From NCBI RefSeq assembly GCF_003634935.1, contig NZ_RBXO01000001.1, positions 6,039,501-6,103,500 on the forward strand: 64,000 bases of DNA, given 5' to 3'. The notes beneath the pieces are model-generated. The model saw nothing but the letters and a program-made list of their open reading frames with translations, ran no database searches and was not told the DNA's origin. Positions 43,009 through 48,668 of the stretch are shown in pieces (the first letter of the stretch is position 1; the number at the start of each line of letters is the position of its first letter). A program made the translations under genes and the position numbers. The stretch comes from Saccharothrix australiensis. Its GTDB lineage: Bacteria; Actinomycetota; Actinomycetes; Mycobacteriales; Pseudonocardiaceae.

Positions 43009-43416
43009 TCAGTAGTTGTCGCCGCCGAAGAACTGCTCCTCCAACTGGTCCGCCGTCCCCGCGAGCAGCGCCAGCGGGTCGGTGAACTCGTGGATGTCCA
43101 GGTCCACCAGCGGCAGCGAGTGGCGCAGCACCACGTGGTCGCCCATGATCGCCGCGCCGCACGCGATCGTCGAGTGGCCGACTTCCTCCAGCAGCGCGCG
43201 CAGGTCCACGTTCGCCGCGAGGCCGATCGGCGACGCGATCTGCACCCACTCGTGCAGCTTGTCCAGCACCTCCCGCACCAGGATGATCACCTGCGTGCGG
43301 TCGTCGTCCTCGCTGAACTGCTCGAAGTTGAACAGGATGCGGATCTCGTCCTCCTGCTCGGAGATCACGTCGTAGGTGGCGCGGATGTACGCGGCGAGGT
43401 CACCCCAAGAAGCCAT
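43009..43416 (-). CDS. Conserved acidic protein of unknown function
   Basis: 135 residues, no signal or membrane helix, acidic (ISEQEDEIRILFNFEQFSEDDD, ending EEQFFGGDNY). The alternation of beta-strand-like segments (TQVIILVREVLDKLHEWVQIASPIG, HVVLRHSLPLVDLDI) recalls YbjN/CesT-like chaperone folds, but I cannot assign it. ATG 43416. Intergenic gaps on both sides suggest it is monocistronic. Confidence 0.7.
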   Translation of the reverse strand: MASWGDLAAYIRATYDVISEQEDEIRILFNFEQFSEDDDRTQVIILVREVLDKLHEWVQIASPIGLAANVDLRALLEEVGHSTIACGAAIMGDHVVLRHSLPLVDLDIHEFTDPLALLAGTADQLEEQFFGGDNY

Positions 43417-46611: not shown

Positions 46612-47526
46612 CTAGTGGTTTGAGATCCGCAACGCGTAGTTCAGCATCGTGACATGGCTGCTGCCGAGGCGGGTCAGCGTGCCGCTGTCAATCAGTCCAT
46701 CCAGGGCCTGTGCCAGGGCCGCCCGAGCCTGCGGACTGCCGCTGAGCAGAGCGGGGCGTGCCGCCACGAGCGCCTGCGTCGTGTGCAGGTTCAGGGGCAG
46801 GTGCGGCGAATTCGGGTTCAGGCGCTCGGTGAGGTGGGAAAGCAGGCGCACGCCCGACCAGCCGTGCTTGTCCGGTGACAGCATGAACGAGTCATCGGCC
46901 TGGGTTTCGGGCAGCTCGCCGATCCAATGCGCCCAGTAGTTCAGGTTCACGAGCTCGGCATTCGTAGTGGCGGCTCTCGCGACGAAGTCATGGATGTGCG
47001 AGCTGTCGCCCGCTGTCGCGAGAGCCACCGCTGCGGAGCGGGCCGCCAGCAGGCTCGTCACATCATCGGGCCGGAAGGGCTTCCGCCCGGCCCGGAACCA
47101 TTCCGCGCGAAGCCATTCGGCCACCTCTTCACGACGATCGAAACCGAGGAGGTAGACCGCTTGACGTCGCAGGAGCGTCTCCCCCGCGCTCCCCTTGTGG
47201 TCCGCGACCACTCGGAGGTGGTCGAAGAAGCGCACCTCTTCATCGGTTCCGAGCGACGGGTATGTCGCCGCGGGGCCGCGCCTCGGGATTTTCGGCACGA
47301 ACTCCGACAACTGTGGCGGCGGGCATCGGGTGAACGGCCAGGTGATGAAGTTGGTCAGGTCCTTGCGGTGGACGCCTGTGGCCAGCGGGTGGAGATCCGG
47401 GTCGACCCACCCGCAACCAGCCTCGACCCCGGTCGACAGCACGAGGTCCGCGTCGGTTGCCCGTCCGAATGCCTCTTCCCGCTGCGCCGATCCCGGCTGA
47501 TCGGGTCCCTCGTGGCTCGCCGACAC
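46612..47526 (-). CDS. Regulator-like protein paired with HD hydrolase (HTH domain not seen)
   Basis: 304 residues, no membrane segments. TDADLVLSTGVEAGCGWVD, NFITWPFTRCPPPQLSEFVP and LLRRQAVYLLGFDRREEVAEWL followed by helical repeats (LNYWAHWIGELPE, TQALVAARPALLSGSPQARAALAQALDGL) resemble the C-terminal sensor half of actinobacterial XRE-type regulators that stand next to HD-hydrolase genes. No helix-turn-helix is visible ahead of it: the frame starts at GTG 47526 and the region upstream is palindromic DNA. It may be an N-terminally truncated regulator or a separate family. Coupled to the HD gene through a stop codon/ribosome site overlap. Confidence 0.65.
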   Translation of the reverse strand: MSASHEGPDQPGSAQREEAFGRATDADLVLSTGVEAGCGWVDPDLHPLATGVHRKDLTNFITWPFTRCPPPQLSEFVPKIPRRGPAATYPSLGTDEEVRFFDHLRVVADHKGSAGETLLRRQAVYLLGFDRREEVAEWLRAEWFRAGRKPFRPDDVTSLLAARSAAVALATAGDSSHIHDFVARAATTNAELVNLNYWAHWIGELPETQADDSFMLSPDKHGWSGVRLLSHLTERLNPNSPHLPLNLHTTQALVAARPALLSGSPQARAALAQALDGLIDSGTLTRLGSSHVTMLNYALRISNH

Positions 47527-47572
47527 CCGTCCGCTCGCAGTCGGCTACCAGCCCCCAGGGCACACCACGGCC

Positions 47573-47708
47573 GGCTGCGTGTCATCCCCGTACGGCCTGC
47601 CCGCAGGGCAACCACAGTCGCCAGAGGGGCGCAAGCACGCTTCACCGCTTGCGCCCCTCTGGCGACTGTGGTGGTCTTTGACAGGTCGTACGGGGATGAC
47701 ACGCAGCC
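47573..47708 (+). repeat. Large palindrome A (left half of inverted element pair)
   Basis: Outer arms 47573-47594 and 47687-47708 pair perfectly over 22 bp; inner arms 47611-47636 and 47647-47672 pair perfectly over 26 bp, loop ACGCTTCACC (47637-47646). Between them an asymmetric interior loop carries GCCCGCAGGGC on one side and GGTCTTTGACAGG on the other. Homologous, in reverse orientation, to palindrome B. Confidence 0.9.
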
Positions 47709-47888
47709 CTGCAAAGCTTCGAAGAAGCTTTGCCCTCATCCTTGGTGGCCTGCCCAGCGGCGAGCGCCCTTCTTTTCCGCTTTGACCCGCTAAAACCGAA
47801 GAACTTCCGTGCGGAAGGCGCCCGCACAAGCTTTAAAGAAGCGCTCGCCGCTGGGCAGGCCGCCGGGGAGGAAAAGCTTTAAAGGCGT
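47709..47888. other. Centre of the palindromic element, itself folded
   Basis: Contains a perfect 10-bp hairpin (GCAAAGCTTC-GAA-GAAGCTTTGC, 47711-47733) and a 21-bp perfect inverted repeat (arms 47747-47767 and 47841-47861) that encloses smaller stems such as CTTCCGTGCGGAAG (47804-47817). AAGCTTTAAAG occurs twice (47828, 47874). AT-richer than the surroundings; frames here look spurious. Confidence 0.75.
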
Positions 47889-48014
47889 CGTGTTCTCCCC
47901 GCATGGCCTGTCAAAGACCACCACAGTCGGTCAGGGGGCGCAAGCGGTGAAGCGTGCTTGCGCCCCCTGACCGACTGTGGTCGCCCTGCGGGCAGGCCAT
48001 ACGGGGAGAACACG
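47889..48014 (-). repeat. Large palindrome B (right half, inverted copy of A)
   Basis: Outer arms 47889-47901 and 48002-48014 (13 bp) plus 47903-47910/47993-48000 (8 bp); inner arms 47920-47945 and 47956-47981 (26 bp, perfect); loop GGTGAAGCGT, the exact reverse complement of the loop of A. Inner stems of A and B differ at several positions, always with the pairing kept. It begins 70 bp downstream of the idi stop codon. Confidence 0.9.
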
Positions 48015-48083
48015 AGACCAGAGGTCTGTGCTGCGCGGTGCGGTGCGGTGGGTCTGGGTCGGTGCGGCTTTGGTCGGGAGTGT

Positions 48084-48668
48084 CTAAGGTCGTGCGGCGG
48101 GTGGTAGGGACGTGGTCGGTGCGACGGGCCAGGTCCACGGGTCCGGGTCGAGGGTGGCCAGTTCCTCCACCTGGAGGGCGCACCAAGGGGAGATCGGGCG
48201 CACGCCGGCCAGCACCGCCGGCACGAAATCGGACCACGGGACCCACTCGAAGTCGTCCACCTCGTCCGGGTTCGGGGTCGGGTCGTGGTCCAGTCGTCCC
48301 CGGAACACCGGGCACATCTCGTTCTCCACCACGCCGTTCTCCATCACCGCCCGGTACCGGAAGGTGGGCAGCACCAGGTCCAGTCGGACACCGGTCAGGC
48401 CCAGCTCGTCGGCCAACCGCCGCGCGACGGCCGACGCCGCGTCCTCGCCCGGCGCGGGGTGGCCGCAGCACGAATTGGTCCACACCCCCGGCCACGTCTT
48501 CTTGTGCAGCGCCCGCCTGGTCAGCAGCAGCCGCCCGTCCGGGGAGAACAGGTAGCTGGAGAACGCCAGGTGCAGCGGCGTGTCCGCGTGGTGCACGTGC
48601 GCCTTGTCGGCTACGCCGATGCCGGTACCGGACTCGTCGAGCAGCACGACCTGTTCCACGCGGATCAC
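48084..48668 (-). CDS. idi: Isopentenyl-diphosphate delta-isomerase, type I (Nudix)
   Basis: Interconverts IPP and DMAPP, the starter for prenyl chains. The 194-residue protein shows [20 protein letters not shown], the catalytic Cys region [13 protein letters not shown] with [17 protein letters not shown] as Nudix box, and the catalytic Glu in [12 protein letters not shown] 48668 is chosen; GTG 48659 would remove three residues. Only 19 bp separate it from the ANL ligase gene upstream, so it is the last gene of the aminohydroxybenzoate-type operon, which may hint at a prenylated product. Confidence 0.92.

Follow-up and report, generated by a model that had tools for sequence, protein, structure and literature searches.

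Two long palindromes stand tail to tail beside a NUDIX-domain gene of Saccharothrix australiensis, raising the question of what kind of element they form and whether selection maintains their fold. We studied them in a window of 64,000 nucleotides, the whole stretch of DNA analyzed (contig NZ_RBXO01000001.1, positions 6,039,501 to 6,103,500). The double element occupies positions 47573-48015 and consists of two inverted units in a heads-out arrangement, unit A on the + strand and unit B on the - strand, with their tails facing each other. Reading of the sequence bore out the two palindromes of the original prediction: both have a 26-bp perfect inner stem, and their 10-nt loops (ACGCTTCACC at 47637-47646 in A, GGTGAAGCGT at 47946-47955 in B) are exact reverse complements. 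As also predicted, the inner and outer stems differ between A and B with matched changes on the opposite arms. The interior segments had been described as unpaired. Instead, they can form two small hairpins, with paired changes among relatives, and each palindrome can thus be a four-way cloverleaf.

Unit A (47573-47708, + strand) is a cloverleaf of the ATCC type. Its outer stem P1 pairs 47573-47598 with 47683-47708 and includes one G-T wobble. Enclosed by P1 are the mini-hairpin P2 (47599-47609, GCCC-GCA-GGGC), the long inner hairpin P3 (47611-47672), whose perfect 26-bp stem joins 47611-47636 to 47647-47672, and the mini-hairpin P4 (47674-47682, GTC-TTT-GAC), all on the + strand. The 3′ strand of P1 is also a possible partner of tail A (47736-47777, + strand), in which TCATCCTTGGTGGCCTGCCC, imperfectly copying the P1 5′ strand, is followed by AGCGGCGAGCG and a T-rich end. 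Unit B (47888-48015, - strand) is of the CTCC type, with its 26-bp P3 at 47920-47981 (stem 47920-47945/47956-47981). Tail B (47835-47871), read on the - strand, has CCTCCCCGGCGGCCTGCCC, a small hairpin and a T-rich end. When the element is folded as a single strand, pairing of A with B over its full length is also possible (-386 kcal/mol). On the A side, an ORF without a Pfam match (46612-47526, - strand) reads away from head A. On the other, the 3′ end of the NUDIX gene (48084-48668, - strand), which we take to be isopentenyl-diphosphate isomerase-like, faces head B. The flanks (47520-47572 and 48016-48110), like those of other copies, tend to be C-rich entering the element from either side and G-rich leaving it, a composition that rho-utilisation sites would also have.

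The double is one of many. Plain DNA comparison with a 511-bp stretch recovered from the same genome 19 other near-full copies (79-94% identity), another with 74% identity and many partial ones. The near-full copies, along with copies in other species, rule out an assembly artefact or a single duplication. The genome-wide covariance-model search proposed at the outset was carried out with a model, R1, built from 59 units of several genomes. In the 7.86-Mb genome, its merged matches comprise 59 full palindromes (the same number by coincidence) at 38 sites, made up of 21 doubles and 17 singles. It matched unit A at C1:6087077-6087204 (+; window 47577-47704) with 137.1 bits, the stem reaching a few bases past the match, and unit B at C1:6087388-6087515 (-) with 138.3 bits (E about 1e-30); scores this high are expected because A-type and B-type units of this genome were among the building sequences. 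A unit comprises a four-way cloverleaf of ~127 nt and a tail of ~55 nt, and the doubles are heads-out without exception (21/21 in this genome, 48/48 at loci of the named genomes). Short remnants of ~55-67 nt match R1 end to end (C1:6036060-6036114, 789253-789315, 2738256-2738310, 7228587-7228641, 1672609-1672675 and 7768763-7768825). These short palindromes are apparently units that lost P3, as also at L271 in G012.

The units are unevenly spread around the chromosome. The largest unit-free gap, 2.39 Mb, lies opposite dnaA (at 332 kb). Random placement gave a gap as large in 5 of 20000 trials, and an empty arc of this size is not what free transposition would predict. A preferred replication strand for the singles was considered and rejected, as 7 lie along the fork and 10 against it (n = 17, with the terminus assumed opposite dnaA).

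In the genus, R1 matched 22 of 25 Saccharothrix genomes among the matches listed, and G007, G008 and G024 had no R1 match. R1 match counts cover both strands, so that a palindrome is usually counted twice, and the number of candidates scored in each genome was capped, which makes the per-genome counts bounds. A pattern scan, again among the matches listed, detected the element in Saccharothrix tamanrassetensis, S. algeriensis, S. obliqua and one Saccharothrix MAG. Plain DNA comparison, which is less sensitive than R1, gave matches in 13 of 60 relatives, all of them Saccharothrix. In a family-wide sample, at least 19 of 100 genomes matched R1: four of the same genus and 15 of the 96 from other genera, where matches were diverged or weak and several were weak single matches. 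The fold was inspected at three of the other-genus loci; L305 and L306, among the best matches, have the family arms and tail, and L307 fits poorly in P2. A plasmid- or phage-borne element is ruled out by the absence of similar DNA in PLSDB and INPHARED at E 1e-5. A known RNA family is ruled out in the same way, as no Rfam match within the window reached its gathering score; a lax search gave 15 matches, mostly microRNA hairpins, all far below theirs. The best-ranked open-licence literature on actinomycetes, Saccharothrix and Pseudonocardiaceae yielded no description of the family, which is weak evidence that it is unreported.

The family provides a direct view of the fold. Of the 3228 cells in 59 diverse units, 98.5% are standard pairs, and 36 of the 55 pairs changed on both sides, including 20 of the 26 in P3. 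Both-side changes fill 503 cells, compared with a shuffle mean of 133 (0/500 shuffles reach 503) and 44-79 in slid controls. The set from named genomes gave 99.3% standard pairs and 753 both-side cells versus 201 shuffled; its 105 rows include three antisense ones, which were removed for the wobble count below. The two alignments, A1 and A2, have genomes in common and are not independent, and the A2 loci were picked by the P1 5′ strand pattern, which biases P1 and P2 and leaves P3 unaffected. Thus, the arms mostly keep pairing as they diverge, and the predicted selection on a folded single strand is supported by the excess of paired change and by the wobble asymmetry described below.

The small arms vary in the same coupled manner. 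P2 occurs as CCC/GGG, CGC/GCG or GGGC/GCCC, with a C-GNA-G loop in most units, and P4 as GTC/GAC or GCC/GGC. In units whose P2 has no closing C, there is usually an additional C next to P1 with which the G can pair (judged by eye; some units have both). Energy folding returned the four-way form in some units and extended pairing of the small arms in others; the paired changes favour the small hairpins P2 and P4. Loop and junction letters are conserved among units, and a G-G mismatch near the base of P3 is kept in 16 of the 59.

The apical part of P3 is close to perfect. In the first set it contains 1107 Watson-Crick, 8 G-T, 4 A-C and 2 other cells, and its 14 bp are perfect in 127 of 144 parsed units (88 were unparsed). 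Between near relatives, 65 paired transitions and 62 paired transversions were counted, along with 21 changes confined to one arm. Neither such symmetry nor such a share of transversions is typical of ordinary RNA stems, and the symmetry hints at one arm being copied from the other. Within the S. australiensis genome, 17 CTCC units have an identical P3 5′ arm, whereas P3 differs in its letters between species at those shared sites that could be parsed. This contrast is a sign of homogenisation within a genome.

The wobbles distinguish the two strands. A G-T pair on one strand is an A-C mismatch on the other, and an excess of G-T on one strand therefore points to the strand on which the fold is selected. 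Read from head to tail, 90 distinct sense rows have 136 G-T cells in 15 columns and 4 A-C cells in 4 columns (15 versus 4 columns, p = 0.02); the wobble cells of related units are not independent events. In the apical P3 alone there are 13 G-T cells and one A-C cell (p = 0.002), and the first set gave 63 G-T versus 13 A-C cells. It thus seems to be the head-to-tail strand whose fold is selected, whether as RNA or as single-strand DNA, and the evidence cannot separate the two.

Past P1, the tail is conserved as (A/C)TCC..GG.GGCCTGCC..CGGCGAG..CTTTT and resembles the P1 5′ strand. It tracks the head: where the tail ends in TCC, ATCC goes with ATCC in 63/63 units and CTCC with CTCC in 127/127, a tally that leaves 19 units unparsed and 23 with other tails or heads, four of the latter with an A in the tail that is absent from the head. 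The tail can take the place of the P1 5′ strand in pairing with the P1 3′ strand, so that two alternative, mutually exclusive helices are possible. For 221 units, the energy of the tail:P1-3′ helix is -23.7 with the own tail and -21.8 (sd 0.18) with permuted tails (0/200 permutations), although the permutation mixes subfamilies and part of the effect is subfamily identity. On the opposite strand the helix reaches -18.5. In the G001/G017 subfamily, the P1 letters differ and the tail has changed along with them, keeping 16 consecutive pairs, wobbles included; these tails score -27.8 with their own class and -12.7 to -19.5 with others. CTCC units do not discriminate (-22.1 with G074-type tails versus -22.3 with their own class), and the two G074-type units pair more strongly with CTCC tails (-27.8) than with their own (-26.0). 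P1 itself is longer and more perfect than this helix; for a switch, its 5′ strand would have to be occupied by something.

The element has a preferred genomic place. None of 39 clusters in the S. australiensis genome lies inside a called gene, and none does in the named genomes. Among the sites in S. australiensis, 18 of 36 lie between convergent genes, 15 between tandem and 3 between divergent ones, compared with 3, 28 and 20 of 51 unit-free gaps (p = 4e-6 for the convergent excess). The 80 loci of the named genomes gave 28 convergent, 19 tandem and 4 divergent sites of 51, versus 41, 159 and 87 of 287 unit-free gaps (p = 2e-9); 20 pairs of these loci have a 60-base word in common, whether from the repeats or from overlap between the stretches, and a few sites may therefore have been counted twice. 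All orientations are from GC-frame gene calls rather than annotation, and the counts leave out clusters more than 500 bp from a gene (3/39 and 15/81, respectively) as well as 15 named clusters not flanked by called genes on both sides. Singles have no preferred orientation: heads and tails each face a gene 3′ end in 11 of 16 cases in S. australiensis, and in 12 and 11 of 17, respectively, in the named genomes. This lack of bias relative to transcription weakens a purely sense-RNA role. No canonical terminator was found in a scan of 47300-48300, where 0.7 were expected in shuffles; the short hairpin and T-rich end of the tail fall below the rule of that scan.

Comparison between species indicates that many copies are old, as several sites are common to two of them, for example L031/L072, L034/L068, L037/L074, L039/L077, L042/L070 and L047/L069. 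L031/L072 and L037/L074 have doubles at both orthologous sites, and L033/L132 and L038/L157 have a double in one species and a single in the other. The comparison took in only loci chosen for holding units and is silent on empty-site frequency. Two gene ends were followed through 25 genomes. After hpt, G000 and G011 carry a double, 17 genomes have a short gap containing a simple inverted repeat (hairpins judged by eye), and in G006 and G018 there is almost no gap. The hpt elements thus occupy a position that in many relatives holds a short simple hairpin. Downstream of a response-regulator gene, G000 and G011 have doubles and G009 a single; G004 and G012 have diverged forms, that of G012 reduced to P1 and P2, and no match was seen in the other 20 genomes. 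Elements are thus gained and lost at gene junctions.

Some of these loci have further features. After hpt, G005 (L234), G010 (L228) and G019 (L238) have a different hairpin with unrelated stems, whose loop, GATCACGCTTTTCGATC, is near the family loop (one letter differs in G019); it is possibly a sister repeat family. In G023 (L224), a long G-rich, repeat-like gap takes the place of a terminator-like hairpin or element. The S. tamanrassetensis ortholog of the NUDIX gene (L124) has no element beside it, but its neighbour gene differs, so this is not a clean empty site for the double in the window. There, the gene after NUDIX reads convergently and by eye resembles the ORF at 43009-43416 of the window, where ~4.7 kb of other genes separate it from the NUDIX gene; the neighbourhood has therefore been rearranged. 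At L085 in G006 (1694-2951), two heads-out units are 1.26 kb apart with two overlapping ORFs between them, presumably an IS630-type transposase; apparently, an insertion sequence entered the spacer of a double.

The original prediction held that no described element type fits well. This is too strong, as REP and REPIN sequences, which are associated with RAYT (TnpA-REP) proteins, have much in common with the family: in the sections of PMC3116915 and PMC3733652 that describe them, they are extragenic palindromes with inverted doublets, convergent or unidirectional location, compensatory changes and a hairpin formed by the whole doublet. Here too there are many extragenic copies, frequent inverted doublets (21/38 sites) and a convergent bias. 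The differences lie in size and detail. A REP unit is given as about 20-60 nt in PMC3116915, compared with about 127 nt and a four-way junction here. PMC6006769 places a GTAG/GTGG 0-2 nt from the foot; GT[AG]G lies within 14 nt of the foot in 1 of 59 units at the 5′ side and 6 of 59 at the other. CGTC-tagged REPs are likewise palindromic and mostly head-to-head dimers, reported in PMC3733652 without a dedicated transposase, but they are short hairpins and are reported from five phyla, Actinobacteria not among them. Unlike REPINs with a RAYT, the family occurs without a Y1 transposase in most unit-rich genomes, and its tail copies P1. IS200/IS605-type elements and integron attC sites are folded strand-specific hairpins with conserved parts; the former differ in that no Y1 transposase occurs in this genome, the latter in that attC boxes were not seen by eye and the units are dispersed rather than in cassette arrays. 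The enterobacterial repeats RU-1 and RU-2 are also called ERIC and IRU. Compared by description only, these 127-bp and 168-bp repeats are of similar length, intergenic and MITE-like according to the abstract of PMC2759123.

A search for a mobilising enzyme, which covered the Y1 transposase family (PF01797), found none in the S. australiensis genome, and the same search was positive in 5 of 14 control genomes. PF01797 occurs in 5 of 25 Saccharothrix genomes, of which only G023 is unit-rich, and is absent from G000, G006, G009, G010, G011 and G016. Its absence from most unit-rich genomes rules out a Y1 transposase as the present driver. The doubles have inverted ends, and their flanks are too diverged to define an empty site to the base.

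Three readings had been offered at first: a MITE-like composite, a single-strand recombination site or paired structured RNAs. What the evidence favours is a REPIN-like dispersed element. We consider it reasonably probable that the units are a REPIN-like family of dispersed palindromes with a likely role at gene 3′ ends. This reading builds on the observed family, its conserved pairing, wobble asymmetry, location bias, presence and absence at orthologous sites and P3 sharing within a genome. For a REPIN-like family, the size and architecture are unusual, and the units probably also serve as a 3′-end structure. They would be non-autonomous, the head-to-tail strand folding into the P1-P4 cloverleaf and the tail able to pair instead with the P1 3′ strand. 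They may spread as a folded single strand by some mobilising enzyme, or be copied from site to site by gene conversion. The perfect arms would be kept by selection on the folded strand, aided by arm-from-arm copying, and the units may act as a 3′-end structure, a terminator or RNA-end protector, for flanking genes. Such a role would explain the persistence of copies at the same sites in different species. Against the REPIN-like reading count the lack of a mobiliser in the search for Y1 transposases, the lack of a definable target-site duplication and the old shared copies, and also the 2.39-Mb gap, the unoriented singles, the absence of a canonical terminator and the unspecific tail in some subfamilies.

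The main competing explanation, clearly less probable but a serious one, is a structured 3′-end RNA maintained by the host, such as a bidirectional terminator or switch-like attenuator, that spread by duplication and gene conversion and not by transposition. The two mutually exclusive helices would then act during transcription. The bias to convergent junctions agrees with this, as do the G-U pairs tolerated on the head-to-tail strand, the stronger tail:P1-3′ helix on that strand, the 16 consecutive pairs with wobbles in the G001/G017 subfamily and the simple hairpins that relatives lacking the element have after hpt. It accords less well with singles that are unoriented relative to transcription, with the negative terminator scan, with the very few wobbles in apical P3 and with paired transversions about as frequent as transitions.

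Comparably tentative is the reading as a single-strand mobile element of a new class: a cloverleaf that carries its own alternative partner strand (X, X′, X*), is moved by a non-Y1 enzyme, is targeted to the terminators of convergent genes and takes over their function. If this were true, many gene ends in these genomes would be formed by a selfish two-state structure.

A site acting at the DNA level to relieve supercoiling between converging genes, whether as a cruciform or by binding gyrase or a nucleoid protein, appears unlikely. Relief of this kind has been proposed for BIMEs, and the near-perfect DNA symmetry of P3, the placement between converging genes and the conserved loop and junction letters would suit it. 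An extruded double-strand cruciform is not expected to have the strand asymmetry of the wobbles, however, and the hypervariable stems offer a binding protein little fixed duplex sequence. Slightly more doubtful still is that mutation mechanics alone, through template switching in the hairpin, keep the arms complementary with no selection on the fold. Paired transversions as common as transitions and rare single-arm mismatches are what such copying would produce, but it leaves unexplained the conserved loops, the coupled P2 and P4 types, the wobble asymmetry and a tail that tracks P1 from outside the palindrome. An ordinary MITE of a DDE transposon with terminal inverted repeats, which the inverted symmetry of the doubles and the dispersed copies would recall, is very improbable given the common partnerless single units (17/38 sites), no transposase-bearing parent among the loci read and no target-site duplications found.

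REP-like palindromes are largely proteobacterial, and a transposase is known for only some of them, according to passages of PMC3733652. On the favoured REPIN-like reading, the Saccharothrix family would add a larger and richly covarying fold across a group of actinobacteria, with no Y1 transposase in most unit-rich genomes, and would be a natural test of how hairpin elements move without RAYTs. Its presence/absence sites between convergent genes would allow a direct look at whether repeats can replace gene terminators.
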